This document shows positions 4,701 to 46,619 of a stretch of DNA of 64,000 nt, piece by piece. How positions within the stretch are numbered: the first letter of the stretch is position 1; each line of letters starts with the position of its first letter. The position numbers and the translations under genes were made by a program. Source of the stretch: Periconia sp. R9002 (lineage: Eukaryota; Ascomycota; Dothideomycetes; Pleosporales; Periconiaceae); the NCBI GenBank assembly GCA_023627715.1, contig JAMAHW010000024.1, positions 248,001-312,000 of the forward strand, in the 5' to 3' direction. The notes below the pieces were generated by a model, which had not been told where the DNA came from, ran no database searches, and was given only the letters and a program-made list of their open reading frames with translations.

Positions 4701-7155
4701 TGCTGTGCGGAAAGTCCTATCCCCCGAATCAGACAATTCCATCGAGAGAGAGGCATCTTTCGCAACTGCTGCTGATCTGGTCGGAATCAACAAGACAAGC
4801 ACTGGTTTGGCACAAGCTGAGTCAACAAACTCCCGATCTCTTGACGAGCTCAGGACATATCTAACAAAGGGTGATCGCGAAAAAGCCGTATGGCATGCTG
4901 TGGATCAACGTCTCTGGGCGCATGCCATGCTTCTCTCCTCTACTCTCAATAAGGATATCTGGAAGCAGGTAGTGCAAGAGTTTGTTCGTGAAGAGGTCAA
5001 GAAAGTCAGCCGAGACAACCAGCCTCTGGCAGTGTTGTACCAGATTTTTGCCGGTAACCATGAAGAATGCATCGATCAACTTGTGCCTGCATCCGCTCGG
5101 GCAGGCTTCCAAATGGTGAGCACAGGCGGTGAAACCACCCAAAACGCTCTCCAAGGTCTAGACAAGTGGCAGGAGACACTGTCTCTGATTCTCAACAACC
5201 GAAGCGAAGGTGATGCAGCGGCGTTGCTCTCTCTCGGCAGGCTACTGGCAGGTTATGGTCGAGTCGAAGCAGCGCACATATGCTTCATATTTGCTCGCCC
5301 CATGTGCATTCTCAGTGGAGTAGATGACCCTCAGGCCGACTTTGTCTTGCTTGGTGCAGATCACCGCCAAACCCCGCTAGATCTGGCAGTGGATCTGGAA
5401 CCTGTTCTGTTGACAGAAGTTTACGAGTTTGGTCTTTCTTTGTCAGCTCAAGGAAACATGCATATCGTACCTCACTTGCAGAATTACAAGCTCGCGCACG
5501 CTTATCGTCTTGCAGAATACGGCCAGCGGACCGAAGCACAAGCTTACTGCGACGCAATCGCAGCCGCAATGAAGGCCACCACGAAGATCTCACCATACTA
5601 CAATGCCAGCTTCATCTCCAGCTTGGACGACTTGAGCAAGCGTTTGTCGCAATCACCAAAGGACGGGTCTTCGTCATGGATTTCCAAGCCAAGCATGGAC
5701 AAAGTATCCAGTTCATTGCTGTCGAAGTTCAACAGTTTCATCGCAGGCGACGATGAGAGCCCGGCCGCTGGCCAAGCTCCTGGTAGTGAAGTTGGACCGT
5801 TCGCGAAGATCGCGGGAGACTCACCTGGTATGAGCCCAGTTCAATCCAGTGCTGATCTCTACGGCGCTTACTCGGGATTTGGGGTCTCATCTCCCCCACC
5901 AGCTTCGACGAATTCCAGGTATGCGCCATCAAATGCTTCAACCACATACGCGCCGAGATCATCAATGGAATCTACCAGAGGCAGGTATGAGCCTGGAGGT
6001 CGCCAGTCCCTGGATTCTACCGAGGGTACTGGCAATGTGCGGGCTGTCTCTGATCCATATGTGATATCACCAGGCCTCGCGAGCCCTTACACTCCAATGC
6101 AATCTCAATTGAGTCCGGGACCACCAACACTTTCTAAGTCGGCCTCTTACTCCCCGCTCCGGACTGAACATAGCATCTCTCAGCCATCGTATGGAGGTTA
6201 TCAACCGCCCTCAGCAAGTTTCGATGATAAACCGGACGAGAAATCACGGGCATCCAGCGGCTACGAACCCCCCAGTTCCTACGATCCTCCATCTTCTTAC
6301 GAACCCCCGAGTTCATATGAGCCACCAACATTTGAGCCGTACAAACCAGAGGCCGAGGAGGAGGAGGAGGAGGAGCCGAAACCCAAGTCTAAATCCTTTA
6401 TGGACGATGATGACGATGATGAGTTGATTTCACGCGCCGCAAACCTCAAAATCTCGTCTTCGACCTCCAAATCTGCCGCCGACCGCGCAGCCGACGACGC
6501 ATTCAAAGCAGCCGCCGAAGCCGACGCCCAGCGCGACAAGGAAGCCGCAGCAAAGAAAGCCTCAGGCGGATGGTTCGGCGGCTGGTTCAAGAAGGACCCC
6601 AACGCCGGCCCAGGTCCCATCAAAGCCAAGCTCGGCGAAGAAAGTTCCTTCTACTACGACCCGGACCTCAAGAAATGGGTCAACAAGAAAGCAGGCGCCG
6701 AAGCCGCGACCCCCAAACCCATGACTCCTCCTCCTCCACGCATGGCCGGCCCTCCCGGCGCTGGAGGTCGCAGCATCAGCGGCGGACCGGGCGCTTCCAC
6801 CATGGGGCCCCCATCCTCCCTTCCCTCATCGTCCAACCTCCTCAGCGCCCCGCGCTCCGGCGCTCCGCCTACCTCCCGCAGCTCGTCCATGCCGCCTCCC
6901 ATGAGCGGCGCTGCGTCTCGCGCTTCTACACCGGGCTTACCGTCTGACCACGAAGACGGCTCTATCGAGGGATCAAAACCCCCGGTCCTAACCAGACCCA
7001 GCTTCCCAGGCGGCGGACCCCCGTCTAGACCCGGCACGGGAATGAGCACTGCGAGTAGTATTGATGATCTATTGGGGGCACCGCAGGCGAGAAAGGGTCC
7101 TGCGGGGGCGAAGAAGAAGAAAGGAGGACGGTATGTGGATGTCATGGCGAAGTAG
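1756..7155 (+). CDS. SEC16: COPII coat assembly scaffold Sec16
   Basis: This is a single 1799-codon exon. The protein organises ER exit sites and recruits COPII coat subunits and Sar1. The first 820 residues are disordered: acidic patches, then Pro/Ser-rich sequence with repeated RYSPAPP units (about residues 585-640). The Sec16 central conserved domain begins near residue 830 (WKGAPVFTWGLGGTAVTTFP) and continues into the helical ACE1-like Sec16_C region to about residue 1270. A Pro/Tyr-rich stretch with repeated SYEPPSS units follows near 1510-1535. A conserved C-terminal element lies near 1600-1645 (GWFGGWFKK, SSFYYDPDLKKWVNKK). Length and order match fungal Sec16 of about 1800-2000 residues. 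The first ATG fits the conserved acidic start (MEDD). No intron is needed. Confidence 0.95.
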   Translation: MEDDAPNFSYAYNDTLSPSEPWWNPALRPDHDEANQNKPPRLQPSPQINPQSKPELDQGLEDDDELPTIPAPVAPVAAAAPASNDTPERAPVADDDFVEHLASGVSDHAPSREPTNNADEDGEGAVAQQDADSSESPEPPPAENYESQAEGSLLEDAVTESAKAPLLENTESAADEWDSGEVFDLGGVPQDAPTQTAPAQTPDPLQTPQAEAVGTTVGDQVIGNTKVGGNAGEELDWGNTAEDDFFGAVAANQPVQASPSTEKGDGAHASEHSAPPDTDPLWDLDMDDDFLPDNEQAPIIDLDDDEGFLDDEPASAPQPVQPATSRYAPQATQAPQAPANPYGAPSPQFTNFTQIDQSKSVPTPVPAYGAYGQPSPYQQQPSRPAMSSSSESFAAKAKGGYHSPYDLPEDVVTTRKRPAARVISSPQTQPAPPPPRSTSMSGSTGAIHPPPPPMSASSLSPPSSGHSAQPQMTGLPPNAGSKPPSLAKSPSSDFFADLPVTSRPKPSPRYTPQPSPQLAPTHGFPPKERTASWSSLRNEFRPDSDNLISQLQQPERLPVFPDQPSPPIRTNSLPVPPAGAAPPSNRYSPAPPAAPAPPAANNRYSPAPPLAPAPPAPPAASSRYSPAPPQTHSAPPSGFPRPPVQPYAPRTSSPLAFHASPQQHEKEQAVAVQEQHEPHSQPPPLRSMHSAEGLGRAPYRTPLEGVSETEEQVTNSAAAPEPSTIPRSETPPQRSRPSSAVSSPRKRNNYTPQYQPMQPGVGVGTPVTSPPRTQSQSPSATMKQPVRSASYDRPASSHSFMPQASAFGLPTAVPSGVQNLNTIPPRSQVAPDYECIVPADERANDPLLRWKGAPVFTWGLGGTAVTTFPKQIPRYGGGATMPMMKCSPGEVKIQNMKEILPLSAEIAKFPGPLKGKGKKKDVSVWLSTQIEVLENQLKNPSLDQSLKETEQKRLSEKILLWKILQVLVDNDGHLQGNEAAEAAVRKVLSPESDNSIEREASFATAADLVGINKTSTGLAQAESTNSRSLDELRTYLTKGDREKAVWHAVDQRLWAHAMLLSSTLNKDIWKQVVQEFVREEVKKVSRDNQPLAVLYQIFAGNHEECIDQLVPASARAGFQMVSTGGETTQNALQGLDKWQETLSLILNNRSEGDAAALLSLGRLLAGYGRVEAAHICFIFARPMCILSGVDDPQADFVLLGADHRQTPLDLAVDLEPVLLTEVYEFGLSLSAQGNMHIVPHLQNYKLAHAYRLAEYGQRTEAQAYCDAIAAAMKATTKISPYYNASFISSLDDLSKRLSQSPKDGSSSWISKPSMDKVSSSLLSKFNSFIAGDDESPAAGQAPGSEVGPFAKIAGDSPGMSPVQSSADLYGAYSGFGVSSPPPASTNSRYAPSNASTTYAPRSSMESTRGRYEPGGRQSLDSTEGTGNVRAVSDPYVISPGLASPYTPMQSQLSPGPPTLSKSASYSPLRTEHSISQPSYGGYQPPSASFDDKPDEKSRASSGYEPPSSYDPPSSYEPPSSYEPPTFEPYKPEAEEEEEEEPKPKSKSFMDDDDDDELISRAANLKISSSTSKSAADRAADDAFKAAAEADAQRDKEAAAKKASGGWFGGWFKKDPNAGPGPIKAKLGEESSFYYDPDLKKWVNKKAGAEAATPKPMTPPPPRMAGPPGAGGRSISGGPGASTMGPPSSLPSSSNLLSAPRSGAPPTSRSSSMPPPMSGAASRASTPGLPSDHEDGSIEGSKPPVLTRPSFPGGGPPSRPGTGMSTASSIDDLLGAPQARKGPAGAKKKKGGRYVDVMAK

Positions 7156-14661: not shown

Positions 14662-17600
14662 ATGAGAAGTAGCGTAGAAAGCACATCCACGGCGTCGAGG
14701 CTGAAGCGGGGCTGGCTCATAACCGACGACGACATAGGCCTGAAGGTAATCCACGAGGCGCCAGTAGAGGAAACGCAGATCATCGAGTACGTCTTTCGAA
14801 TACTTGTGTCTCAGCACTCACCCTCACGGTACATGCTGACCGTTCAAGCATCGTCGCTATCCACGGCATCGGCGCTCATCCCGACTACAGTTGGTGCAAG
14901 AATGTGGGCACCAGAGAGAACCAGCAGTGGATCAACTGGCTGGAGGAGGAAAGCATGCTGCCAACTGTGGCTCCAAACGCGCGCATTATGCGGTACGGAT
15001 ACCAGTCACACTGGTTCGGCGAAGGTGCAATGAGGCAGAGGACATCCACAGTTGCACAACGGTTGCTCTCTGCGTTGAAGCGGATCAGAAAGGTGCGAAC
15101 TTCCCGCCATCGATCCCTAAACACTGCTAACTCGCAGATGGCTTCTAGGAGTTCCCGTACCGACCACTCGTTTTCATCGCGCATTGCTTTGGCGGGTTGG
15201 TCATACTGAAGGTAGGCAGGCTCCGTTACATCAGATATGCGAGGCTGAAGCTGGACAGGCTCTTCTCGACGCTCGAACCTACGAAGAAGACTGGCCCGGC
15301 ATATTCATCTCAACCACTGGCCTGATCTTCTTCGGCACGCCGTTTCGAGGAACTACAAACATGAGCCAGACAGAGATGCTCGAAGCGGCCCGAAATGAAT
15401 ATCATGACGACGATATCCAGCCAGAGATCCTGAAGATTCTAGAGCCGGAAAATGAGTTCCTCCAAGACCTCGTCGACCAGTTCGGTAAAATACGGCGAAA
15501 CGCCAATAAGACCCAGGTAGTGTGCTTCTATGAGCTCAAATCGAGCAACGTTGGGAAAATTGTGGGTGGCAAAGATCGAACGGTACGCTCATCGGCACCT
15601 TGTATGTCTTTCCAGGCTAACTTTGGTTGAAGAGATTTGTGGTCAGTGAAGGCTCTGGCTGCCTTGATCTCTCTGATGCGACTAGTAAACATTCCCTTTC
15701 GCGGACACACTTTAACATGAACAAATTCAGCAGTCCCAATGAAGAAGACTTTCAGATTGTTGCGGAGGCTGTTCAATCGATGGTTGAGGCCGCCCATGGA
15801 CTTGTAATAGCTCGAAGCGAGAGTAGGTGATAGACCACCAGTACAATATAATACTATAGTTATTTTTGTGTTGACTCGTGGCCAGAAAAGAGTGACGAAG
15901 CTTTTTCAGTAACTTTCAGCCTTTCTGGAGTGGCAAAGACTGAGGATTTCGTAGCGAGAGAAGGGGAGCTAGCCCAGATGGACCAAGTGCTCCGCTCTGG
16001 TGACGGTCGTCGGACAGTCACTCTCCACGGTCTGGGCGGTATAGGCAAGACACAACTCGCGATTACATACGCTGTCCGGCATCGGGCAGACTTCTCCGCC
16101 ATCTTCTGGTTCAACATCAAAGACGGAGACTCGGTGAAGCAGGGTTTTGCTAGAGCGGCGCGAAGGATTGCAACGGACTGCCCATCGAGCGGGCTACGTG
16201 GTCTTGAGGAAGAGAAGGATCTGGACAAAGTGATGCGAGCGGTCAACCGCTGGCTCGAGCAGCCTAAGAATACTCGGTGGCTCATGGTCTTCGACAACTA
16301 CGATAATCCAAAGCTGTCAGGGGTCACTAACCCCACAGTGGTTGACATCCATCGCTTTCTTCCAGAAGCCTACCATGGCTCGGTCCTCATTACAACTAGG
16401 CTTGCAGCTGTAAAACTTGGCCGTCAGATCCCCATAAAAAAGCTTAGTAACCTGGTTGATAGCCTCAGGATTGTCTCGGATTCCTCAGGGAGAAATATTA
16501 CTGCCAAAAGTAGCAACTCTTTAACTCCTTTCGGATGTGAAAAATACTAAAATTGATAGATGATGATGCTGTGGCGCTTGGTAAAGAGCTGGATGGTCTT
16601 CCTTTAGCACTGGCTACTGCAGGAGCGTACCTGAATCAGGTCACAACAAGTTTGGCAGATTATCTTCGCCTTTATAAGGAAAGATGGCTGCGGCTGTTAC
16701 AGACGACCTCGGAGCTAGAATCATACGAAGACCGGGCATTATATACGACATGGCAACTATCGCTCGACCATCTCAAGCAGCGGAACGAGCTGTCGGTACA
16801 TCTCCTCAAACTGTGGGCGTACTTTGATAATCAAGACCTCTGGTATGAGCTATTAAAAAACTATTATGACGCTCCGGAATGGCTGCGTCAACTCACGGGA
16901 GACGAACTCGAGTTCACTGCAGCAGTAAGATTACTTTGTGACTACGGGCTAGCGGAGGCCTATACGTCGCCTGAAGATACCACCCCAGAATCCCAGGGTT
17001 ACAGCATGCATAGCTGCGTTCATTCGTGGACGGTGAATGTTTTGAACCAAGACCAGAGCCATCATATGGAAAAAGCGGCCTTAGGTTGTATAGGTTCACA
17101 TCTATCGAGGAGTTTTGCTTGTCATTCTTTAACATTACAGCGGCGTCTGCTCGAGCATGCAGCAAGATGCTGTGAATTCGTTTTAAAGGATGGAGCCGGC
17201 ATAGACGGGATGGAATGGGCTTTGGGTAATCTGGCCCTGCTCTATACCAACCAGGCGAAACTAGAGATGGCGGAGCAGTTGTACGATCGAGCGCTGCGGG
17301 GATTTAAGAAATCGTTTAGACTAGAGCACATTGAGACACTCAGGACAATGAGCAATCTAGGTGGGGTTTACCGAGTACAAGGCAAGCTAGATGCAGCTGA
17401 GGAGATGTATAACCAAGCGCTTCAATGTCAAGAAAAAGCACTTGGACTGGAGCACATTGAGACACTCAGAACAATCAACAACCTAGGCCTAGTCTACTGC
17501 GACCAGGGCAAGCTAGATGCAGCAGAGCGGGTATATAATCAAGCACTTCAAGGTCTAGAAAAAGTATTTGGACTAGAGCACGTTGAGACACTCAGTACAG

Positions 17601-18427
17601 TCAGCAATCTAGGCATACTCTACTACACACAGAGCAAACTAGATTCAGCAGAGCGGATGTACAATCAAGCGCTTCAAGGTCAAGAAAGGGTACTTGGAGT
17701 AGAGAACATTGAGACACTCAGTACAATCAACAATCTAGGCCTAGTTTACGCCGATCAGGGTAAACTAGATGCAGCAGAGCAGATGTTCAGTCGATCATTT
17801 AAGGTCTGGAAACAGGTGCTCGGAGCAAATCACGGAGAAACCCTAACAGCACTTTCCAACTTAGGACTCTTATCTAGCCGGAAAGGTAATTTTAAAGAGG
17901 CCGAGGAGAGATATGAACGAGCTTTGCGTGGACTTGAGGAAGCATTGCATCCCGAGCATACATGGACACTAAACGTGGTCTATAATTTTGGCGGTCTACG
18001 CATGGCGCAAGGCCAGCTCAATGAGGCTGGATTGATGTTCAAGCGTGCACTGCAAGGCTACGAGAAGGCCCTGGGTCCTGGGAATCCATATACGCTCAGG
18101 ATATCTATCAGTCTGGGCAGTCTTGCTATGAAGCAAGGAAAGCTGGAAGAGGCTGAGCAGAGATACCAACAGGTTCTAGAAGGATTCGAGAAGTCACTGG
18201 GCGTTATCCAGGTCAAGACGTACATTCCCGCCCTGGATACTCTAGAGAACATTGGCCGGCTTTATGCGTCTACAGGACGTTTGGAGCAAGCCTTGGAGAT
18301 GTACAAGCGTGCATTGAACGGTGTCGAGGCAGTTTTCGGGCGGTCTAGTCAACGGTACTCCAAGCTGGCTGCAGTGATGGCAAGCCTTGAGAGGCCAGTT
18401 GTTGACGTTGAAACCCTTGCCGCTTGA
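14662..18427 (+). CDS. NLR-type receptor: alpha/beta-hydrolase-like, NB-ARC, nine TPRs
   Basis: Exons: 14662-14786, 14849-15092, 15149-15211, 15259-15582, 15633-15822, 15886-16509, 16560-18427. All phases close, giving 1145 residues. Residues 42-310 form a lipase-like alpha/beta hydrolase (GIHGIGAHP near 46; elbow AHCFGG near 134-139; LIFFGTPFRG). NB-ARC follows: P-loop GLGGIGKT with Lys near 370, kinase-2 WLMVFDNYDNP near 447, a GSVLITTR element and GLPLALA near 536. Residues about 740-1125 are nine consecutive 42-residue TPRs of the NLGLVY-QGKLDAAE type. This is a known fungal NLR layout linked to non-self recognition and regulated cell death. The expected nucleophile Ser is Cys (near 136), so the hydrolase may be inactive or use Cys. 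The gene looks intact. Introns are 47-63 nt. Confidence 0.88.
17210..18350 (+). repeat. Tandem 126-bp units encoding TPRs
   Basis: Nine back-to-back units of 42 codons lie in the last exon of the NLR gene. Units 2 to 5 (about 17335-17840) are especially alike, sharing QGKLDAAE, YNQAL and LEHIETL-type blocks at both protein and DNA level. Such near-identical internal repeats can gain or lose units by unequal recombination. Confidence 0.8.
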
Positions 18428-20988: not shown

Positions 20989-23900
20989 CTATCGTTCCAT
21001 TTGTGTGGCTCTAGTAACACCTTGAACAGCCTGATGACTTGATCCTCCAACAGTGGCACCGCATTCAGGACAGCGCGCAAGTTCCATTGGCATGCCGCAT
21101 TCACCGATAGCAAACTGAATAGATGGTTAGTTTTCACCCTATATAGTTGCAGCTTGTGATACTTACTGGATGTCCATTGGCGCAATTGTACCAGTGACCC
21201 GAGTGTGTTGCGATACCTCCTCTACCACTCACCATAGCCCTCTTGATTTCGGCAAGCTCTTCGGCGGTCACTTCCTCGTACCACTCCCTTCCAAGGATCT
21301 CAATATTTCCCTCGACGCAAGTTCTCAGTTGATCAGCATTCTGAAAAGGTTGCTTGCATAATGTATGCGCTTGATTTAGCAACTCTTTTGCCTCTTCTAC
21401 GTACTTGGTTGCGTGCTTTCTGGCTTCTTCGGACAATCCAGAAGAGCGGTAAAGCTGAGCTTTCGTCGCGAAGTGAATTGATGCTTCTACTGCGAGTTTG
21501 GGAAGTTTCTCAGCCGTGCAATCCTTCATTAGCATTGCGCAAGTTTTCAGGAAGTCTTTGATAAGTTTTTCTGGATTACCGAGTGGGAGTTTCACATTTT
21601 CAGCGGACAGTCTTGATCTGAGCTTTCTTATAATCTGGAACTTGTCTTCCAGCATGATGGAGTCTACCTTGATCTGAAGAATGCGACCACCAAAAGTGAT
21701 TCTACGGTCTCGTTCGACAGGGGGAATGTAGTCTTGCTGGATACTCAGCGAATCAAGTGCAGCAGCGAGAGATCCAGGGTTGTCTATAGTGTTGTTCCTA
21801 CTAGCATGGACAATGGCTTCGTGAAGCTTATGGGCCGGTTGATGTCGATCTGCAATGCCCCGGAGAAAACGATTGATCTTATTTTGTAGCTTCTTGGACT
21901 CATTGTATCGCGTGAGGATCTTTGACATCATGTCTCCTCTAGAGTTGTTGATGTCTCTCCTTGACTTTCCAAGATCTGATTCAAGACCCTCAACATCCTT
22001 TTCCAACTCTTGCAGCCCATTTTTGCCGTTAACCAGGAATCTTTTTGATATTTCATCGACCACCGCTCTGTTGATGACACGGTTGTATCGGCGAGTGATG
22101 TATTGCATGATTGGTCGCTGGCAGTCTGGGCACTTTGGGATTTTTGTTGCTAAAGCGCCGCTGATATCTGCCAGGCTAGCGAAGTATCCGTGAATATCAG
22201 TAGTGTAAACTTCACTCATACCCACAACGCCATCGAGCGACTCCGCTGTAAAGAAATGCCCACATCTGAGAACTACAATTGGGGTCTCGTCGATATTGGC
22301 TTCGCAATAAGTTTTCATTTTAAGAAGGTCAACTCTAGCATCTGGCTTGGACCCACAGGCGTGACAGTAGTCGGTGGGGCATTCTTCGCCGTATATACCC
22401 GGACACCGATGGCCACAAGAAAGACTATTCGAGCAGCGTTGATCACAGGGCAGCCTGTTACAGGGCGCGGAACACGGCCTTAAATAGACGAAAGGTTAGC
22501 ATCGGTTCAAAATGACTGTCTCGCGCAGAGGTTACACTTACATGGTGCATCGCCCACGATGTTGGCACTCCCATGTGCATCTCTCAACACATGGCGCACA
22601 TGGTTCGTGGCAGCGCAAGGTACATTTCGAATGTTGGCAACGGACTTCACAGGGAGAGAGGCAAGGACCGCAATCGTCTCCGTGGCAAGCCTTTTGACAG
22701 AAATGGTTACATGCGGTGAGTCGACGTCCGCACGGTTTGGTGCATTTCTGATGTGAGGCTGAAACTTTGCCTTCAGCGTCCTTGCTGTTACAGCTCCTAC
22801 AGGTTCCTGGATAAAGGTGACCGCAGGGTAATGTTGTATTGTAAGGGGTTGAGTAACGATAGTTTTCTGAGTTCACATCTTCTGAGCAGGTTACTCTTAC
22901 TGTATGGTTACAGGAAGGAACAAGCTTCTTAACCAAAATGGAATAGCGGAGTATACTGGGATTCTGTGCTTGAAAGTAGAGTACATTATCTTTATAATGC
23001 CTATAAGGAAGCGAGACATTGTTCAGCTTGATGTGACAGTACCCGCAATCCTCCCTACACGTTGGCTTCTGGTAGGCGTGTCCGCATGGTTTATGCAGTC
23101 TTTGACAAGGCTGTGGGCACAAAAAGGCTTTGTGTATACTTTTTGAATGACATCTAGACTGGCATATATGGCTACACTTAGGTAAGCGCCAGAGACATGC
23201 GAGGCGACATCCTCCTTCTGGGCTAACTTTGGGAAAGTCATGAGGTTCATGAACTGTGATCTCGGTTTCGGGATGGCGGGGACAGCTAAGCCCTAAACTT
23301 GTTCCTACGGCGTCCGTTATGCGAAGTATGTTAATAACTTTCTGCTACATCTTAATATTTGAATATGTATTAGAGTTGCTAATTAGGTACATTCCTTGCT
23401 GAGCTTGACTTAGAAGAACGTTAATTCGATTTGTCGTTCTGAGAAATCTGACTCTCTTCTCGTTATTGCTTTGGACGAGAGAGACAATAATAACCTTAGC
23501 CTCCTCACCTTGGAAGTTGTCGACTGTTGTAATTCGTAAGAGATTACTGAGTGTCTTCTTTTCTAAAACGGTCTGATGGTGCGTTGAACGTAGCTCTGCC
23601 GCTTCCTGATGAGGACTTGCGTCGCTTTCGCTGAATCCGTCCTTATTAAGTGCTTCTTGATCTCTGTTGCTAAGTATGATTTTAAAATTATTTCTTATTG
23701 CTGAGCGAAGCTTCTGTAGCTGCCTAGTGTAAGGTGTTAAGACAGCGATATCACTGCTTTTGTAGACACCCTGCCGAATAATGTGGCGGATCAATGCATG
23801 TACCATTTCCACTTCCCAAATATTTGAATGAGACTTATGGTGCATTTCGGAGTTATGTCCCTCTTTAAAATGGTCATGGTCTAACCAGTACACATTCTTC

Positions 23901-26900
23901 TGCATCCTAACTACATCTGGAAGGTCGACCGTAGTGCCGTGATCGGTCAATTTGGGATAGATAGTTTCCTGTATTAATTTTGATATCTTAGGACGCATGC
24001 GTCGCTGCACGTTTAGCTGGGACACTGGAATCTTGGGTCGACTAGGTTGCCCCACGGAGAGCCTTTCGAACTGGCTTCGATCTAGTTGGTATATGCAACC
24101 CTGCTTGCTTTTAAGCGAAAGACCATAGTTGCTTATCTGCGGACGAAGTTGTTCATGATCTCCGATTTGGATTAGATGTTCAATCTATGAATGTTTCTGT
24201 TAGTATGCCTGTGCTTACAAGATGCTGTTCTGGAAGCAATTTACCGTTGGAAGCAACGCAGATATTATGTGTGGTTCCATAACTTCTCCCGCTTCCTCAC
24301 AGATCATAATTTTGCATTGTATGTGCTGTAGAGTGGAAATTCGTTTTGCCAGACCTGTAGTAGTTATCCTAATAACGTCTGCCGCTTGAAGCACTCGTCG
24401 GTCAACGTTATTGTGGATATCAGCCAGTCTTTTATGTATGGAGTTGGTTTTTTTTACCCTCTCGTAAAGATCGTTAAGAGCATCATCGCGGATCTCTTGA
24501 CACTATAGACTCATAAGTATTTGCTTCTCATGCTGTGACAAAGAATGAACGTTGACTTTCGCCTTTTGTAGAACTTGGTCAATCAACGCGACTGCCGGTC
24601 TGACCTCGCCACTCTCTGTGCCTGTGCGCTCACTGCCATTTGAAGCACGCTAAGTATTAAAAAGAGGTGGACTAACACGCTCAAAACCGTCTTTATTAAT
24701 CTCATTAAATTGCTTATAGATCTTCGGGTACTTACATATGAGGTGCCACTGCAAATTCGACCAGTTAGCATGTTTGAAAATGCTATGAAGACGTCCTAGA
24801 CACTTTTTAATGCGTTTAGACTCTTTCTCCAAACCCTCGTATAATTCGTGAAGGAGAAAACCCTCTATTCTCGTTTTGCCTTTAGTTTGGGAAATGTTTC
24901 GAAGGTTGTGCTCTTCCAGAACGGTGGAGTTGCTCTGGCCTCTGATGCGAATAGTCTTCTTGATTCCAGTATCGACTAAATGCTCTAGAAATTGATTAAG
25001 CGCATGGTTGGTGTAATAGCTCGTTTATTGTTAGCTAAGGCTATAAACATTGAAAACTCCTCTTACACTACAATGATAGGTCCTAGGTCTACTCTTGATT
25101 TGCATTCCATTAGAACCTTCATCAATTTGACCCCAAGATACGATTTTCCAGTACCAGGCGGACTTTGGATGAATGCAAATTCTCGCGTCAAAGCTGATAT
25201 TAAGGCTTGGCTCTGGCCACGATCTAGTCCTGTACGGGCTTTAATGGTGTCTATGATAGCTGTGTCATTGGGGGAAGAGGCCGGCAGTACGTGGATGTCT
25301 CCTTTTCCCATCTCCTCTGTTTTGAGAATGGACTTCAACTTGAAAGCAAATCTAGGACGACGAGTGTAAAGTGGAGCTGGTATGTTGAGAATATTTCCGC
25401 CTATTTTGTTCCGCATGTTCTCGACTCTGTTAGGGAGGATGTAATCCTTGAACGGCAGCCTGCTGAGATTTTGCATCCTCTTTAAGTTCTCGAGAATTGG
25501 CACAAATGTAGCTGGGATGATACTAGGAAACTCTATAAGAAGCCCCCGAGTTTTTTTGCTGCTCAACGAAACGGCTAAAGTGATGTGTGTCTGATTAAGG
25601 ACTAGCAACTTTAAAGTAATAGTGCATTGATGACTCTCTTTTGTAAGGCTCCCATCGTGCTTTGAATTTGTCTCTCTCCTGCTGACGGTGAAGAATAAGT
25701 GCTGAACGTTACCATCCTGAACTGCGATAAATGATAGAAGAACACCAACGCTAAGTCTTTTGGAGTCTTGCCACTATTTTGTTCTCTCTTTTGCTGATTC
25801 TTTGCGCAGCTGTGGAAGTTGTCGGAATGAGATATTTATTTTGAGACTATGCCGACGGTCGAATGATATATAGCTGATGTACGCATCCGAGTAGCGGAAA
25901 GCCCGAAAATCTCCGAGACTGAGCTTTGGATTGTTGATACAACCTGGATCGTTTTGTATAGTATGTAAGAGCAATCCTAGAGCCTCTTTCAGTTTTCTGA
26001 AAGTATCATGACGAAGAAGGCGAAAACTTGTGTCGATATGCCTTTCAACCTTGTCTTGAAGGAAATGAGGTTGGTCGAGATTGGTGGATGGCAAAAAGTT
26101 GATTGCATCGCTTATGATCTCCTCGGAAGTTGGAAAGATCTTGATATCAACAATATCAGGCTTGTCATTATCGTGGCGATTTCGTGGCATGACCAGATTG
26201 CGAGGATATGTTGATCTAGTGACAGTTTCTACACGCGCACCATCTTCTTCTTGCGCAAGAAGTCCATTTGCTCGTACAATAATGGCTCGTATCTCATTAA
26301 TATGGCCTAACGTGATTGGCTTAATTAGATTACGACCATCCCCAGCGATTATCTTCGTAGCTTCTTCCATCAAATCGAGTAAAGAGGTAATGTTTTCGTT
26401 GAATCTAGCGCGAGGCTCTCTCCCAAGAAGCTCTCGCAGTGCAACCGGCATAGTCTGTAAAGTATTCTCGATCGTTGTGGGAGAGTTGGCAGATGTCAAG
26501 TGAGACTCTACAAGCATTTGAGAAAGATGTTGGAAGAAAGGAATCGCGCGGTTTCCATTCGTGCCACTGATGAAATTGTAGAGCGCTCCGACAGAGGTAT
26601 CAACAGAGAGGCAATTCAAAAAAGCCCGATGAGTAATGACGGCCAGAAAAGAACGCGCGATACGAACGAATTTCTTCTGCTTTCCTGGGGTTGATCGCAG
26701 CTTTAGCAAAGCCTCAATATGTTCCCTGCCTCGATAGTCGTCGCTGTCTAGATCGCGTGGCAACTTTTGCTGCCATTCTAGATTCTCGCCGTCTAAGATG
26801 GCAAGGCCATCACTCCAAAGTTGTTTCATTGTCCTCTCATCGTTTCTAATGGAGGGCGCCTTTATGTATCGAAGCCATGTATTGTACTCCATTCTAGCGT

Positions 26901-27137
26901 GTTGTTGCTCGGGAGTCTCCTCGGGTCTGGGTGGTCGTCCTCCACGATTCTGCCTCCCATTTTCATCTGCAGAGGGAGAATCATGGGAGTATTTGCATGA
27001 TGAGCCGAACTTGCAATGTCCGTGTTTTTGGAAATAGTGACATGGCCTTTTTTCCCTCTCCCACCCTGCCCTGGACTACCTTGTCCAAATCCCCCCCGGA
27101 ATCCTCTTTCCCGCCTGTCTCGATCAAACATATCCAT
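20989..27137 (-). pseudogene. ZNFX1/NFX1-type zinc-finger helicase gene with four TAG codons and a frameshift
   Basis: The model reads 27137-25067, 25019-24245, 24184-22542, 22478-21167 and 21114-20989; introns of 47-63 nt splice cleanly. Content: Gly/Arg-rich start, CCCH finger (CHYFQKHGHCKFGSSCKYSH), a long helical region, then SF1 helicase motifs: QSPPGTGKS, YYTNHAL, ICEEAGEV, GDHEQLRPQ and VDNFQGEE. A C-terminal array of NFX1-type Cys/His fingers is followed by the conserved ECGMPMELARCPECGA end. ZNFX1-class helicases act in RNA silencing and RNA sensing. Lesions: TAG at 25774-25776, 24650-24652, 24503-24505 and 23345-23347 (the last replaces the Trp expected before QKVINILR). The finger is out of frame with the start, needing one extra base near the A6 run at about 27050. 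Motif VI reads LSQAQQGMY instead of the expected LSRARRGMY. Corrected, it would code about 1975 residues. Confidence 0.85.
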
Positions 27138-30705: not shown

Positions 30706-33700
30706 CTAAGCACCCCGGAGCCGCATCACCAAGTGTAAAGTGTTTTCCTTTTGACTAGAAAATTGAAAAGTCAGTAGGGTGTCAAATGCGGACAAAACTA
30801 ACATTTTCACACTTACATATTGTAATCTGCTAGCGTTCTCCCGTCCTCCAGTTGCTTCCCTGCAAAGATGAGTCTCTGGTGGTCAGGAGGAATCCCCTCC
30901 TTGTCTTGTATGCGCGACTTGAGATTATCAACGGTCTCGGAAGGTTCAAATTCTAGAGTGATTGTCTTTCCCGTGAGCGTTTTTACGAATAACTGTTTTT
31001 CGTAGCGTCTGATTGTCGAGGGATCGACTTTAGGGTACAGCCGATCAATGAATCTTTGCTGCGGAGTCGAGTCGGTTGACAGGGCGGAGGACTCAGACGG
31101 TTCGCCAATTTTTCGTGTTGCAAAAGAAGGTACAGGCGGGCAGTATTCTGCGCGTAATGCGAGGCTGTCATGCAAAGCCAAGACGGTATTGTCTCGTTCC
31201 TCTTTGTCCTTGAGGGCTTCGAGGCGCGTTAACTGGAAAGGATTCATCGTTGATGACAAAGATGAATCTTCCGAAGTACGGCCAATAAGGTCATCAATAT
31301 CTTCCATGTCAACATCATCTCCTTCGTTGGGAAGAAACTCAGACGCGGTTCCTTGAGTGTTCGTTTCGGCATGGTACTTCTTCCGTTTGAGTGTCATGCG
31401 AGGCAATATGTCTTTCCGCGCGACAGGTGATGCAAATTTCTGGGCGAATTCTTCTGGTGTCAACATCTGCTTGATATCTCTCCTAGCGTTTCGAAAAGCT
31501 TCCCGAAGGTCTGCATGTCGGAGTGATTGTGGGTACAACCGTTTCCACATTGGTATCAATTCCAATTGACCCGTCGCAATCTCCTTGTGCGTATCGATGG
31601 CGTACTGGATCTGGGTTTTGATAGCTGCTTCAGTCTCTGGGCCTTTGAGCACTCTCACATTATGTAGAGCAGCATCAAAAACAAACGCGGATTGGTCAGG
31701 CCTTCCCTCGCGGAGGCAGTGGAAGGCAAAAGCTAATTGAAGCTGCCATTGGATCGAAGAACTGAGGTTGCAGGCATCCGCCGGGAGTTTTTCTTCGAAG
31801 GCTTTCTGATAGGCATCCAGCATTTCCAAACATCGAAGCGCCACCGAGGCAAGCGACGAAATCACTTCGATTGCTTCTTGCCTTTCCCTATCAGGAAAAT
31901 TCATGGGATCCACGAAAGGGTTTGTATTATTATGGAAGCATTGACCCACTGCGAAGCTAAATGAGATGGCCAGCTGTGCAGTGGCAGCGATGGTGAGGAT
32001 CGACATCTCTAACTTCTGCTTTGGCGTAATAAGCTTGAGGACAAGCTCCTCGACGCGGGATGCCCATTTTTGCAGTCTATTCCAATGAAGAACATCATTG
32101 GAGACTCCGCAACAGATCAGCAGGGAATTTGCGTACTCTGATTCTCCTCTGACATATGTTCTCGCGGTGCGGAAGATATCGCTCGCATCATCGATAGTGT
32201 TCTCCGAAAGTTTCGCCTGTTGGAATGCAATTAAAATGGCATAGGTATCATATACCTCAGTCTGTGGCATCAAGGTAAACTCGTCTTGAGGGTCGAGGCC
32301 TGGGAAAACGATACGGTCGAGGAGCACCCTGAACTCCTGAAGCATGAGCATGAGGTCAAGAAATACATCGACAACTCCACCTCCGCCAGTCTGGTATTGT
32401 CCGGTACGGTAGATCAAGGAAATTTTATCCCCCATGCCGGCCATCTCTTTGAGCTCGCTGAAAAAGGAGAATATTATAGCTTGCCATTGTCCACTACTGG
32501 CCGAGGGCAAGCGACGCGAATTTTTCAAGGCTCTTTTCATATTGCGGAGCGGTGCAAGTCGAAGGAAATCCTCATCTGCCTCTCGGGCACAGTCGTCAAT
32601 CGATTGAATGAAAGTCCAAATGGCATCAAAAGCAAAACTTTTGCGAAGCTGGTCGTCGAGATCAACCATGGCCCATTGCTGCACGAGCGGATGAATCCAA
32701 ATTTCGTAATCTGTGTCGTCATCTTCTTCTTCGTCATCTTCCCCATTCTTGGAGGTTATCTTCATGCGGAGGAGGCAAAAGGTTTCAAGTTTTGCCAAAG
32801 CCGTCTTGAACCTTAACATATCCCATTGTCCACGGCTGTTGCTGGTTACGGAAACTAGGTATTTAGGAACCCTGGCACTTTTGGACGAGATTTCGGTTAG
32901 TCTTCCAACGTAGTTCCAATAATATTTCGTCCGTACTGCATCACGGAAAAGGTCAGTGTGCAGCTGAGACCGGTCGAAGAAAGCCATCAGCCGGAATAGC
33001 GATGCTGCATCTGGTGACGACTCCTCGACTGCCGCCAGCGATCTCCTCCATGTCTCGAACACACCATGTTGGTAGCTCGAAAGATATTGTGCTGCTGGTT
33101 TGGGCCTCAATGAGTGATCGAGGGAGGTGTCTTCCTGTAATTCAACCCATGAGGCATAGCCTTTGAGTTCTCGATCATGTGTTTCATACATAAAAGCTCC
33201 CGCAAGCTCTAGTCCAAGAGGGAGGCAACCGACATACCCTGATATTGCAGCAGCGCGCTCTCTGTGTATGTCGGAATGACTCAATTTCGGACGCGCAAGG
33301 TTCAACAAAAGTGTCTTTGCATCTTCAAGCTCCATTTCAGACACCGGCATACTATGTCCGAGTCTTTCTGCGTCCTTTCGTCGAGAAGTAATAATGACAT
33401 CTCCATTTCCCACGCGAGGTAGGTGCCAATCCATGTCGAACTCAGCCGGGTTATCGTAGCTATCGCAGATAAGCAGCCATCTGCTTTTGCTAGCTGAAAG
33501 CCAACTTTTGACGAATTGGACAGTATTCTCACTACCAGCTTCGCGAGGGTCTTGAGTGGCAGCAGCCAGCTGACCTTCGCTGCCGCGAATGATCTGTGCG
33601 ACGCTGGCGAAAGAGTCAAGAAATGCCTTTTTACTCGTGGCATCCAGGAAGATACGATGTTTGTACGTCTCTTTAGATGATTCGGCATATTCGTAAGCCA

Positions 33701-35076
33701 CTTGCGACTTTCCGACGCCGCCCATTCCTATGAGAACTAGTACCCGCGGTGGCTCGGTTTTGACAGGTTTCGATTGAAAATATTGCTGAATCGATATAAT
33801 GGTATCTTTGCGACCTGTAAAGTGGGGCACGGGTCTTGGAATTGTGCACAATATAATGTCGCCCTCTGTCAATTTGAACTGTCAGATTTCTCATTACTCT
33901 TACATAAACAAGATATACGAATCGTTGCATCCCTAGGTCACTCACGGGTCGAATTGCTTGAGGCGTTCTTGATGTCACTGATATATGACTTGAAAGCCTG
34001 CAAGACCTTGGCGTAATTGTCATCCTGACCGTCCTTATACTTGACCATGGTACGATGGTTTGCATTCAGTGTTTGACGACGCTCTGCAGGTTCTCCAATA
34101 ATGCTAGAGAAGCCTTCAACAATCTATGCGCAGGTCAGTATTCTGCAGTTGCCCAAAGAGACCTAGAGTTTTACCTTGCCATTAAACCCTGGGATATCAG
34201 TGATGCTTTGACCTTCAATAAAAGACCGTACTTTGAAATCGTCGTCTTTCAGCATAATGGCAAAGTCATCCATCAACCTTTCAAGGATCTCGCTTCCGAC
34301 ACGTAGATCCTCTAAAACCTGTGTGTCTCTCTTCCCCATCGCAAATATAGTTGCTTTCTCTGCCAATGACACCCAGTCACTCCCACGATGAGGAGTGCCG
34401 AAGAACACCACCGCGTTCGTGGAAGTAAAGATAGGTTGAAGGTCTGGCTTGTACTTTGCATCTTTGGACTGTTTCAATGCCTACTACAATCAGAGCAAAT
34501 CCAGCTCAGCAAGAACTATGACTTACATCTTTCACCAAAATACCACCAAGACTATGAGCTGCCCAAACGATAGGACGTGTTGGCTAAACCGGTTAAAGAA
34601 CAATCAAGGTTCGATATTGGTATAACGACATACATCAGTTTGTCTTTCCCCTGCCAAGTCTTCCAGCATATTGGTAGCATGATGGTATATGTTCATCCTG
34701 TTGACTGGATCCAGAAAACGTGCGGGGTCTGAGTCATAGCCGTAAGTCAATATGCGTACGTCAGGAATTGCCGCCGCAAGAAGATCCTTCAGCCAGAAAA
34801 CCGATGTTGGGGCAGAGGATGTGTCGTTTGTGGTGGGTCTGATTCTCCTGAACATTGAGTTCATCGACCTTGATACAGCCCCGGCCGACTCGTAAGTCCA
34901 GGTGTCTTTTGGATGACCCCCCAGGCCATGTACGAAGACAAAGCTGCACGTATTAGCAAAAGAAGCCCGCAATAATTCTTCATACGAGCATACTCCGCTA
35001 CGGGTTCTTCTCCATTGTTATTTCCTTCGGATATAACAGTGAATCCATTGCGTCGAATGAACAGATTATTAGACAT
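30706..35076 (-). CDS. NLR-type receptor fused to a C-terminal ubiquitin: alpha/beta-hydrolase, NB-ARC, helical region, ubiquitin
   Basis: Model: 35076-34986 (uncertain), 34943-34634, 34583-34527, 34480-34175, 34123-33946, 33865-30817, 30754-30706; about 1345 residues. The alpha/beta hydrolase has [13 protein letters not shown], elbow AHSLGG with the Ser present, and [13 protein letters not shown] has [38 protein letters not shown] and an IHPLVQQW winged-helix motif. A long helical part without clear TPRs and an acidic linker ([10 protein letters not shown]) follow. The last 75 residues are ubiquitin-like ([37 protein letters not shown]). The last intron falls in codon 61, and the final exon gives [15 protein letters not shown] then stop. 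Lys at ubiquitin positions 6, 11, 27, 33, 48 and 63 and the L8/I44/V70 patch are kept; position 29 is Arg and Gly76 is Ala. Exon 1 does not join in frame (one base off), so the start is unsettled. Confidence 0.82.
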
Positions 35077-42079: not shown

Positions 42080-42773
42080 GGCTAGAAGCCGTGAATGTTT
42101 TACAGTTTGTTGGATACAGTATTAAGAATGGCAAATGCTTAACAATTCGCTGATTGACGCGGTCAAGAAGTCGCGACTTCAGGAGAAAGGTATGGTTTGG
42201 AGGAGGTCATTCGACGGTGGGGTGACCTATTCAAGACAATGCTGGGATGCCAGCTTGACCGTAGTTATCTCTGTAGCTTGATATCGGCCGTCCGGCAGAA
42301 AGGTGTAAAGTTGGGGCAGGGTGAGTAACGTAGCGCGATGTCAAAAGCGAGCTCTCTTGTTAGCTAGTACCCTGAGTCAGGTACCTTTCTTATCGATAAC
42401 TCTATGACACGCACGGAAAATTCCTACGACATTCCACTCCCCAATAAATGCCTATTAACGACCTTGCAACCATTTGAAAATCAGGACGAAACTACGAAAG
42501 GGAGTATCATGGAGTCACTCAGCGTTTGGCGGAGCTGGCTATCAATCCTCAAAATGGCAATTCCATAACCCAAAAGAAGGAAACAGCTCCAGACCTCACC
42601 TCCTCTACCGAGGCAAAATGACGCCACTCCAACTTCAAAGGCGCGTCATTTTGACCCATCCAACCACACAGTGTTTACGACCTCACTAGTTAGTTATTTT
42701 TACTTAGAATTTCCATTCCTTCATCATCCACCGCCACACCTACTCGCCGCCTGATCTTATCGCCGTATAATTA
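42080..42773. other. Divergent promoter region, WD40 and SelO-like genes
   Basis: About 690 bp between divergent starts. The right half contains a perfect 11-bp inverted repeat, listed separately. Otherwise no ORF or RNA gene was seen. Confidence 0.45.
42614..42653. promoter_or_regulatory. Inverted repeat with two TGACGC cores, upstream of the SelO-like gene
   Basis: CAAAATGACGC at 42614-42624 and its exact reverse complement GCGTCATTTTG at 42643-42653 are separated by 18 nt. The arms end about 120 bp before the start codon. TGACGC is close to half-sites bound by bZIP/CREB-like factors, so the pair could be an operator-like double site or a hairpin in the transcript. Function is inferred only. 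Confidence 0.45.
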
Positions 42774-44852
42774 ATGCTTTTGCGCCGTTCCATCCCACGT
42801 CTACCCAGATCAGTGGCGACACACCAACAGCACCTCAAGCGGAACATCACAACGTCGATGCGCCTATCGCAAGTCATGGCGCACCTCGATTCCTCTACCA
42901 ATGGAGCTCCGACAACGAACGGTACATCCAAGTCTGCAGGTTCACACACTCTCCAGTCTCTCCCCAAGTCGAATACCTTCACATCGAACCTCCCCACAGA
43001 CCCCGCATTCCCGACACCTTCGGCATCACACGCCGCCTCTCGCGAACACCTTGGTCCACGCCTGGTCAAGGAAGCGCTGTATACCTACGTACGCCCCGAG
43101 CCTACCGAGGATCCCGAGCTCCTATGCGTCAGCCAACGCGCCCTCCACGACATTGGGCTTAGCGAATCCGAAGCGCAAACCGAAGACTTCAAGCAAGTAG
43201 TCTCAGGGAGTAAAATCCTGACATGGGACGAAAAGGAAAACGCCGAAGGAGGTGGGATATACCCATGGGCCCAATGCTACGGCGGCTATCAATTCGGACA
43301 ATGGGCAGGCCAGCTCGGCGACGGGCGCGCAATCTCCCTCTTCGAAACCACAAACCCAGACACCAACACGCGGTACGAGCTCCAGCTCAAAGGCGCAGGA
43401 CGCACACCCTATTCACGATTCGCGGACGGCAAAGCAGTGCTTCGTTCCAGCATCCGCGAGTTCGTCGTCTCGGAGTACCTCAACGCGATCGGGATCCCCA
43501 CCACACGAGCGCTGGCGCTCACCCTCTGCAAAGGAAGCCAGGTACGCCGCGAGCGCCTCGAACCAGGCGCCATTGTCGCGCGGTTTGCGCAGTCGTGGAT
43601 CAGGTTCGGCACCTTCGACCTCCCGCGCATGCGCGGCGACCGCAAACTGATCCGCCAGCTCGCCGACTACACGGCCGAGCACGTCTACGGCGGATGGGAC
43701 AAGCTCTTGTCCGCACTCCCGCCCGGCGGCGACCCCAAAGAAACACACGCCTCCGTAACCACCGGGATCCCAAAAGATCAAACCGAAGGCACCGGCCTAA
43801 CAGAAGAGAACCGCTACACACGACTCTACCGCACCATCGCCCGCCGCAACGCCCTCACCGTCGCCAAATGGCAGGCCTACGGCTTCATGAACGGCGTCCT
43901 CAACACGGACAACACGTCCATCCTCGGGCTGAGCATCGACTTCGGACCCTTCGCGTTCCTCGATACCTTCGACCCCACGTACACGCCCAACCACGACGAC
44001 CACATGCTGCGCTACTCGTACCGCAACCAACCCACCATCATATGGTGGAACCTCGTCCGCCTGGGCGAATCGCTAGGCGAGCTCATGGGCGCAGGATCCA
44101 CCGTCGACACACCCTCCTTCATCACCGAAGGTGTCAAGGAAGAAGACACCGACGACCTCGTCGCGCGCGCAGAAGGCATCATCGAGCGCGCCGGCGAAGA
44201 ATACAAAGCCGTCTTCCTCGCAGAATACAAACGCCTCATGACCGCCCGTCTCGGGCTAAAAACCCAACTCCCCTCCGACTTCGACGTCTTGTTCTCGGAG
44301 CTCCTGGATTGTCTGCAGGCTTTTGAGCTCGATTTCCACCATGCGTTTCGGAGGCTGTCTGACGTTGAGCTGGATGAGCTTGATACTGAGGATAAGCGGA
44401 AAGACGTCGCGGGTCGCTTCTTCCGCGCCGATGCCGCGCCTAGGCAGGAAGATGTCTCGCGCGTGCGCATCGGGAAGTGGTTGGGTGCATGGGCGGAGCG
44501 GGTCCGGCAGGATTGGGGCGAGGGGAAAGACGAGGAGCGGAAGGCTGGTATGAAGGAGGTGAATCCAAAGGTACGTTTCCCCCCTCAAAACCTTCCAAAT
44601 AACTCAACACCGATATGAAGAATCTTTGTGCTGACGAAAGTCGTATAGTTCGTACCCCGCTCCTGGATCCTCGACGAGCTCATCGACCGCGTCGAAAAAA
44701 GGGGCGAGCGCGAGATCCTCCCGCAGCTCATGCAGCTCAATCTCGAACCGTTCCGCGAGCACTGGGATGGGTGGGATGAGAGCGAGGTGGAGAGGTTGTG
44801 CGGTGACGTGCCCAAGTATAAGGGTATGATGCAGTGTAGTTGTAGTTCGTAG
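42774..44852 (+). CDS. Selenoprotein O-like protein AMPylator (SelO/YdiU, Cys form), mitochondrial
   Basis: Exons are 42774-44570 and 44649-44852, giving 666 residues. The basic N-terminus (MLLRRSIPRLPRSVATHQQH) fits a mitochondrial presequence. The pseudokinase-fold core shows YGGYQFGQWAGQLGDGRA, LQLKGAGRTPYSRFADGKA, REFVVSEYLNAIGIPTTRAL and the metal-binding GVLNTDNTSILGLSIDFGPF (near 372-392). The second exon ends RLCGDVPKYKGMMQCSCSS, the usual C-terminus in which animal SelO carries selenocysteine and fungi carry Cys. SelO transfers AMP to Ser/Thr/Tyr of proteins and is linked to oxidative-stress control in mitochondria. Length and motifs match the family closely. Confidence 0.93.
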
Positions 44853-45081: not shown

Positions 45082-46619
45082 TCAATCCACCCCACCAACA
45101 AGAAACTCGCCAACCTCCAACCCGACGCTCCGCCCCAAATTCCTCGCATACTCCCACCCAAACCCAACCCTCCACTTCGCCCCGGGCTCCAACGCATCCG
45201 CACTCCCCGCTCCACCCGCCCTCACCAACAACCGCATACTCGTCAACGTGGCGATTTGCGTGTACAAATCCGCGACCTGCGGCACGTTCGCATCGTCCAG
45301 TAGGGCTCTAAAGATCGCTAGCAGGCGATCCAAGGGGAATGGCGAGGGCGTAAGCAAGTGGCGCGAGATCTTGCGGTGCTTTACTTTTGTGTAGCCCGTG
45401 GACGCGGCGTGGTGGACGCGGCGCTTGTTCTTGCGCTTATCGGTGTGCTTCATGAAGTAGGTGACGTCTGTGCGGGCGGGGTTGTAAGAGGCCAGGTAGG
45501 CGGCGATGAGGAGGTGTTTTGTGTAGTATGGGAGGTCGTGGGCTAGGGTTCTCATGTTTCTCTTTACCGTGAGGGGGGTCGTGGAATTAAGGATGCCTTC
45601 GGGGTTGGCGAGGGGGCTTTCAGACGCGATGATGCGGTCTAGCACGCCTTCTTCGCCTTGGAAGAGATGGCGTCGGTTTACCATCAACCGGGAGAAATCT
45701 CGTGTGCCGAATGAGCCTGCTACAATGGGCTCTACGAACGGTCGCCAGAGCTTCATGGCTGCCAGGTGGAAACTGACTAGGTCGCGACCCGTGTGTTTGG
45801 ATAGGGAATCGTATACGGCGGCAGTGAAACGGCCCCATAGCCATGCGTCGTCTTCAGCGGCGAGATCGGTCGTGTAGCCGGCGAACTTCTCTAATGAGGG
45901 GGGAGTGAGGAAGATCTTTGGGGGTTTTGCTGAAAGTATTGTGAGGAGAGAAGAGCGCGAATACGGTGGGAAATGGACATGCGGAGTGGATGAGGTGTAG
46001 AGAGCTTGCGTGAGGGGGAGGCTGGATATGAGGATGATCGAAAGGTTTGGTATCTGTATGAGGTTAATATTTCCTATTCACAAACGTATGTCGCTGGACA
46101 ACATACCACTTCTCGGAATCTTCCCAGCGCAGCCATCATGGTCGGTGGAGCTTCCCTTTGTTTGTCGATGCCATCCAGCACTAGCACAAACTTTCCCCTT
46201 CCTTCCAAAAGCCTTTGTAAATTGACTGCTAGACTGCTAAGATTCTCGGTTCGTGCATATCGTCTCCTGTCAATCTTTTCATTCTCAAAGTCGTCCAGCG
46301 CATCTAGACTTGACGCAACAATGCGCTCCAGCAGATGCCTCCCGGTAATGCATTCTCGACATTGCACAATCGTATGGGTAAGCGAAGAGAGTTCGAGAAG
46401 AGATTTGATGATCGATGATTTGCCTGTGGCAGTAAGCCCGTGGGCAACAAGGAGAGGTGGTGAGGGCAGATGAGGTTCCTGATACGAGTAAGTAGCTGCA
46501 CAGCTTCGAGTTCATGCTGCCAAAATGCGTACAGAATAGAACGCAGTCAATTGCTGGATTTGCGATTCCCGACAGGGAAATTCGGATTGGAGGGTATCGA
46601 GGATTTCATCAGGCAGCAT
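45082..46619 (-). CDS. ORC5: Origin recognition complex subunit 5
   Basis: Exons are 46619-46533, 46478-46107 and 46053-45082, giving 476 residues, the normal size for Orc5. The start MLPDEILDTLQSEFPCRESQ is typical: a segment before the AAA+ core with the CRE-Q motif. Walker A is GLTATGKSS (near 43-51) and Walker B is FVLVLDGID (Asp near 131). The middle has IILISSLPLTQALY. The C-terminal part includes KLWRPFVEPI, DLPYYTKHLLIAAYLASYN and the basic KHTDKRKNKRRV segment seen in Orc5. ORC5 is part of the six-subunit complex that marks replication origins and loads MCM helicase in the nucleus. Introns are 53-54 nt with normal signals. It converges on the SelO-like gene with about 230 bp between stops. 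Confidence 0.9.

Follow-up and report, generated by a model that had tools for sequence, protein, structure and literature searches.

Can a fungal NOD-like receptor (NLR) carry ubiquitin itself as a permanent part of its own chain? The question arises from a 64,000-nucleotide stretch of Periconia sp. R9002 (contig JAMAHW010000024.1, positions 248,001 to 312,000; hereafter the window, meaning this whole stretch), in which a first-pass annotation described an NB-ARC protein whose last 75 residues are nearly complete ubiquitin. The architecture and conservation reported here, as predicted from the DNA, show that the gene is one member of a conserved group of putative fungal NLR-type receptors ending in a permanently fused ubiquitin. 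This C-terminal-ubiquitin family is apparently both real and an undescribed kind of receptor.

Seven exons joined on the minus strand, from 35076 to 30706, give a predicted protein of 1343 residues that consists, from N to C terminus, of a lipase-like alpha/beta hydrolase, an NB-ARC and a helical region, followed by a linker of variable sequence and, at the end, ubiquitin. The six introns measure 46 to 80 nucleotides, and every one is GT...AG. The gene model is predicted from sequence; its start and N-terminal exons are backed by an end-to-end alignment with P0001, a protein of 1351 amino acids from Pseudogymnoascus sp. VKM F-4520 that was found by whole-protein search, is 50% identical and ends ...LHLVLRMRGA. 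The annotation had placed the gene at 30706..33865, a span that holds exons 6 and 7; the gene itself begins at 35076, and five further short exons carry the hydrolase. The features are as follows.

30706..35076, minus strand: whole coding region, 7 exons, 1343 amino acids (exon joining and end-to-end alignment to P0001)
35076-34994, 34943-34634, 34583-34527, 34480-34175, 34123-33946, 33865-30817, 30754-30706, minus strand: exons (exon joining)
34040..34942, minus strand: alpha/beta-hydrolase effector region of SesB-like lipase type, about residues 29-280, split by introns (Pfam and motifs)
33165..33812, minus strand: NB-ARC, about residues 330-545, with P-loop GMGGVGKS and Walker B-like LLICD (Pfam, model matches and motifs)
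31530..33122, minus strand: family-specific helical region, about residues 560-1090 (relatives' searches; AlphaFold2 models mostly helical)
30996..31529, minus strand: variable linker, about residues 1091-1268 (identity to relatives and model confidence)
30817..30995, minus strand: ubiquitin positions 2-60 with the first two bases of codon 61 (residues 1269-1328), sharing its exon with the NB-ARC
30755..30816, minus strand: 62-nucleotide phase 2 intron in ubiquitin codon 61 (exon joining; position inferred in 19 relatives)
30706..30754, minus strand: last exon, ubiquitin end and stop (exon joining; the RGA end also occurs in P0001, P0138 and P0141, and RGG in P0132)

As annotated, the NB-ARC and the ubiquitin lie within one long exon. 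Exon 33865-30817 encodes the NB-ARC, helical region, linker and ubiquitin up to codon 61 in a single open frame, and the frame at 33881-30813 (minus strand, 1022 open codons) runs from the NB-ARC through to ubiquitin. A domain search confirmed the identity of the C-terminal end: the Pfam ubiquitin model matches residues 1270-1341 with 98.7 bits (E 1.6e-28), so the match is not due to chance, and the fused ubiquitin equals the host ubiquitin unit at 63 of 75 aligned positions. Finer points of the first-pass description also held. Position 1 is Lys instead of Met and the chain ends in Ala, six of the seven lysines are kept (K29 being replaced by Arg), the L8/I44/V70 surface is present, and splicing of the 62-nucleotide GT...AG intron at 30816-30755, in codon 61, restores the ubiquitin end. 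The domain has the sequence and beta-grasp fold of ubiquitin, with Gly75-Ala76 in place of Gly75-Gly76 at the C terminus of the window protein and of three of the four other members with complete tails. Besides this gene, a search of the Periconia genome for a second copy gave just weak matches (E 0.03 and 0.1).

The annotation had proposed looking for NB-ARC proteins with C-terminal ubiquitin in other fungi, and 23 ubiquitin-bearing relatives were found. Searches with P0001 residues 640-1290 (21 proteins) and with a profile (24 proteins) together yielded at least 28 different proteins, a lower bound given that each search scored about 8000 candidates sharing most words. Ubiquitin follows the linker in 23 of these 28 proteins, all of which share the helical region; P0001 and the 22 other ubiquitin-bearing relatives agree with the earlier view of one gene encoding an NLR-type receptor that bears its own ubiquitin. 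Named members come from Pseudogymnoascus sp. (P0001), Cladophialophora immunda (P0132) and Elaphomyces granulatus (P0138), and these three are public-database entries labelled as hypothetical proteins. The five proteins without ubiquitin (P0124, P0133, P0135, P0144 and P0145) all end before the ubiquitin position (P0133 and P0135 just before its expected start) and are therefore no proof of ubiquitin loss either way. P0144 may form one gene with P0147, the two being pieces of it (contigs 7692 each).

A tree of the helical region, with 26 rows (the window protein and 25 of the 28 relatives), placed the window protein with three relatives in one group (100/100), ten rows including P0001 in a second (83/88, not starred) and ten rows including P0132 and P0138 in a third (100/100), with P0140 and P0143 each standing alone. 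P0145, a 359-residue piece, lies outside the tree, and the other four rows lacking ubiquitin have ubiquitin-bearing tree neighbours; one of them, P0124, is the nearest row to the window protein by identity (53%). With P0124 as the single query, viral contigs contained no relatives, and bacterial and archaeal genomes gave 18 pattern stretches and no relative.

Conservation within the fused ubiquitin was tabulated over 24 rows, the window protein and its 23 ubiquitin-bearing relatives. Eleven positions are invariant (L8, T9, G10, K27, Q41, R42, G47, K48, L50, Y59 and N60), F4 is kept in 23 rows, and position 44 is Ile in 16, Leu in 7 and Ser in 1. Met1 is found in none. Lysine is retained at K6 in 13 rows, K11 in 20, K29 in 9 and K33 in 14, and Q40 is Gln in 10. 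The family also has a signature of its own, comprising V17F (21 of 24), I23V (21 of 24), V26L (22 of 24) and S65N (all five complete tails). These complete tails belong to the window protein, P0001, P0132, P0138 and P0141, with P0001 and P0141 near relatives, and all five keep Q62, H68, V70, R72, R74 and G75; their last residue is Ala in four and Gly only in P0132. Since a single change explains the distribution of RGA tails, present in all three main tree groups, and RGG, present at one tip, Ala76 is probably old in the family, as judged from five tips only. Ubiquitin is the slowest-changing part among those measured in the receptor. Distances in ubiquitin and in the helical region correlated with r 0.57 over 22 rows (a value reached in 0 of 5000 shuffles) and with r 0.14 over 18 rows without near-copies (reached in 988 of 5000), so that co-inheritance of the two is not shown by this measure.

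The codon-61 intron gives the ubiquitin a potential point of control. Retention of the intron leads to an immediate stop (ATG TAA), with the last strand and the tail of ubiquitin gone. Of 19 ubiquitin-bearing relatives with an incomplete ubiquitin, 16 break off precisely at codon 61, on Met or Val, and the other three extend 2, 6 and 30 residues beyond it. Because single-frame gene calls break off where a phase 2 intron at codon 61 would interrupt them, conservation of the intron position in these 19 relatives is implied, and regulated retention could act as a ubiquitin off-switch. A stop upon retention is likewise implied in 16 of the 19. The comparison with the host polyubiquitin gene, also proposed in the first-pass annotation, showed that the intron is not shared: host introns, as read from the sequence, lie near codon 8 in the first two units. 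Four ubiquitin units on contig C6 are unbroken across codon 61, and the ubiquitin-L40 unit on C91 is unbroken over codons 20-72. Capture of a host ubiquitin exon together with its intron was rejected, as the host polyubiquitin, C6 and C91 units examined have no codon-61 intron (a further match, on C16, covers codons 30-72 and lies outside this comparison). The same genome has other diverged ubiquitin-like domains within larger frames, two in one 437-codon frame (G000:C85:131335-131847) and one at G000:C3:209422-209619.

Comparison of N-termini showed that the N-terminal effector swaps between a hydrolase and a nucleoside phosphorylase, whereas the predicted NB-ARC/helical chassis keeps its ubiquitin. 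The window N-terminus matches Abhydrolase_6 with 20.3 bits (below the Pfam cut-off of 26.3) and contains the motifs HSLGG (Ser142) and NHRTM (His275). Both motifs recur in P0001, whose N-terminus matches DUF676 (20.0 bits) and Abhydrolase_6 (19.7 bits), each below cut-off. P0138 instead matches PNP_UDP_1 above cut-off (30.9 bits); in P0132 no Pfam model matches this end, but the protein can be aligned to P0138 from residue 3 onward and shows weak nucleosidase matches below cut-off. These two members thus have a nucleoside-phosphorylase-type N-terminus in place of the hydrolase, which indicates that ubiquitin goes with the chassis as the effector changes. The hydrolase also occurs on another chassis, since P0002 from Aspergillus mulundensis, which matches 22% of the window protein at 53% identity, has NACHT-type and ankyrin as its listed domains. 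SesB-like lipase and PNP_UDP domains are both known fungal NLR N-termini (PMC4986451, PMC12881547, PMC12258605).

The receptor itself has sequence features of an NB-ARC-type NLR, namely an NB-ARC with a P-loop and an N-terminal effector domain. Although the window NB-ARC scores slightly below the Pfam cut-off (22.1 bits against 23.5), relatives score above it (P0137, 31.3 bits; P0144, 28.2 bits), and in fold searches a structural model aligned to NRC3, Apaf-1 and CED-4. The NB-ARC parts of P0001, P0132 and P0138 also match the NCBIfam model FxSxx_TPR, a bacterial NB-ARC/TPR-type family, with 148.3, 178.6 and 135.5 bits; these scores are below the cut-off of 300 and make a bacterial kinship of this NB-ARC type possible. 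Pfam matches up to E 1 in the C-terminal half include no TPR, ANK, WD or LRR family. AlphaFold2 models place long helices in series across the helical region; fold searches were dominated by ubiquitin or NB-ARC matches and barely probed this part. Identity of the linker to 22 relatives averages 18%, and linker model residues 829-885 (protein 1141-1197) have a predicted local distance difference test score (pLDDT) <50.

What might a built-in ubiquitin do for such a receptor? The reading we prefer, to which we give somewhat less than an even chance, is that the receptor resembles a mono-ubiquitylated protein permanently, that this state is recognized either by ubiquitin-binding machinery or by the rest of the same molecule, and that the NB-ARC switch would be freed when ubiquitin signalling changes. 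Because the cleavage site of deubiquitinases lies after residue 76, where this protein ends, the fused ubiquitin should resist removal. The receptor would behave as an NLR in a constant mono-ubiquitylated state. The conserved Ile44/Phe4 face of its ubiquitin would be bound by ubiquitin-binding proteins or by the rest of the receptor, and this contact would hold the receptor off or dock it. Release could be triggered if free chains compete for this contact, if chains are built on Lys48 or if the fused ubiquitin is modified, after which the N-terminal enzyme would act. The share of host-like residues is 91% at the Ile44 face and 96% at the F4 patch, both patches following the ubiquitin literature.

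Several points weigh against the docking reading. The 12 outer-helix positions (between 16 and 33) that serve as the drifted set, with a host-like share of 42%, were defined only after the conservation table was known, and the Ile44 face is only weakly more conserved than the remaining surface positions between 2 and 60 (permutation 0.057; 19 rows, near-copies removed). Furthermore, a mimic acting through Ile44 needs no tail, yet R72, R74, G75 and the end at residue 76 are kept in five of five complete members, which hints at use of the tail itself. Docking or self-inhibition via the Ile44 face is the least-demanding reading, while irreversible conjugation best explains the kept tail residues and the exact end. 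C-terminal ubiquitin fusion, the layout of the window receptor, has been used to mimic a mono-ubiquitylated protein (PMC7538584).

Conjugation through the tail is thus the first alternative, a doubtful one in our estimation. Activating and conjugating enzymes (E1/E2) would load the free ubiquitin tail, and the whole receptor would become attached to a target or to receptors beside it, through a bond that Ala76 makes slow to form and deubiquitinase-resistant. The ubiquitin does sit at the extreme end of the protein, its R72, R74 and G75 persist despite divergence elsewhere, A76 spans all three main tree groups with G76 in P0132, and the same genome has 11 matches to ThiF (E1-type) domains. One paper reports that ubiquitin G76A still undergoes conjugation, with lower efficiency, and is not deconjugated afterwards (PMC6898720), and its isopeptide bond is reported to be more resistant to deubiquitinases (PMC5298413). 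Given the former report, the first-pass claim that an Ala end cannot be conjugated is not supported, and P0132 even ends RGG; a review points the other way, counting mutants without an intact GG as non-conjugable and citing the same 1992 yeast work (PMC7659471). It is the double mutant G75A/G76A for which a lack of conjugation is described (PMC7538584). A donor of roughly 150 kDa would be unusual, the loss of G76 in four of five tails would lower activation, and complete tails number only five, two of them from near relatives. In its strongest form, this alternative makes the receptor a giant deubiquitinase-resistant ubiquitin: on activation the RGA or RGG end would be E1/E2-loaded, and a lipase- or phosphorylase-armed NLR irreversibly fixed to its target or assembly neighbours. 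We regard that version as rather improbable.

An integrated decoy is likewise doubtful. Here the fused ubiquitin would be bait at the sensing end, and an invader protein that binds or modifies ubiquitin would trip the NB-ARC switch. A host-like domain is what a decoy calls for, and the fused domain is one (63 of 75 positions identical to host ubiquitin); its constancy on effector exchange also fits. However, ubiquitin is the slowest-changing part measured and not a fast-diversifying one. Q40 of ubiquitin is a target of some bacterial deamidases, and just 10 of the 24 rows have Gln there. The sensor end of fungal NLRs is C-terminal (PMC10197012), and putative integrated domains have been described, such as a kinase domain in 12 Sordariales NLRs (PMC12258605).

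A built-in degron appears unlikely to a greater degree. Under this explanation the fused ubiquitin would seed Lys48 chains, and rapid turnover would keep receptor levels low as long as chain assembly and the proteasome work normally. K48 is invariant whereas K6, K11, K29 and K33 vary, but K27, which is buried in ubiquitin, is equally invariant, making invariance alone weak proof; K48 also adjoins the Ile44 face, so its retention may reflect a role in binding. Plant NLR levels are under ubiquitin-proteasome control (PMC6032283). Finally, the proposal that neighbouring genes or a misassembly fused a polyubiquitin copy to an NLR has the odd layout in its favour and nothing else, and we give it practically no credence: the full-length relative P0001 has the same end, 23 of 28 family members carry ubiquitin, the fused domain is unlike the host unit at 12 of 75 positions, the host polyubiquitin introns lie elsewhere than codon 61, and P0001 and the wider family rule out an assembly error or two genes.

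The first-pass annotation knew of no fungal NLR with this layout, and the literature searched, which included the main fungal NLR papers in their available parts, supplements being outside its scope, contained no account of an NLR that ends in ubiquitin. In those parts, "ubiquit" occurs 0 times in PMC4986451 and "ubiquitin" 0 times in PMC10197012 and PMC12881547; its one mention in PMC12258605 is a reference title, and PMC6525431 has PF00240 and NB-ARC in separate table rows. The window family resembles fungal NLR/STAND (signal transduction ATPases with numerous domains) proteins of the SesB-like or PNP_UDP - NOD - repeats type in its N-terminal enzyme-type effector, NB-ARC with P-loop, C-terminal sensing end and N-terminus exchange (PMC4986451, PMC10197012). 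It differs in that the window receptor has no detected WD, ANK, TPR or LRR repeats and carries the family-specific helical region, variable linker and ubiquitin instead.

The fused domain shares with ubiquitin its fold, Ile44 face, K48 and R72-x-R74-G75, as well as the 63 of 75 positions, and departs from it in the missing Met1, the N-side fusion, A76 and the signature V17F, I23V, V26L and S65N. Rad23/Dsk2-type proteins have built-in ubiquitin-like domains, N-terminal or internal, without a diGly-like tail. The window receptor is similar in having a non-removable ubiquitin-like domain within a larger protein, but its domain is C-terminal with the tail kept to residue 76, and NCBIfam rad23 matches are below cut-off. 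As in NLRs with integrated domains, a host-type domain is fused at the sensing end; no ubiquitin case of these was found in the literature searched, whereas 23 of 28 members have the domain here. Crinkler fungal NLRs also carry a ubiquitin-clan domain, in their case an N-terminal Crinkler domain and not ubiquitin itself (PMC9815663). A review describes the molecular cues that activate fungal NLRs as unidentified (PMC10197012). A conserved family with ubiquitin as its sensing end directs attention to the ubiquitin system, whether as a signal, as a partner or as a battlefield. It also offers natural NLRs whose ubiquitin is non-removable and in which G76 and A76 occur as a natural contrast, both open to in vitro testing.

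Elsewhere in the window, a second NLR-type gene lies about 12 kb away (15852-18427, plus strand), with an NB-ARC above cut-off (25.1 bits) followed by a long TPR array. The frames at 21134-27075 (minus strand) match a CCCH zinc finger (31.2 bits), AAA_11 (19.5 bits, below cut-off), AAA_12 (121.6 bits), the last two being helicase parts, and, weakly, an RZ-type zinc finger (20.3 bits, below cut-off), and resemble a ZNFX1/NFX1-type helicase. RZ fingers are linked to ubiquitin ligation in animals, which makes the neighbourhood of the receptor suggestive. Other neighbours are housekeeping genes: Sec16 (1747-7155, plus strand), SelO (42771-44618, plus strand) and ORC5 (45082-46077, minus strand).

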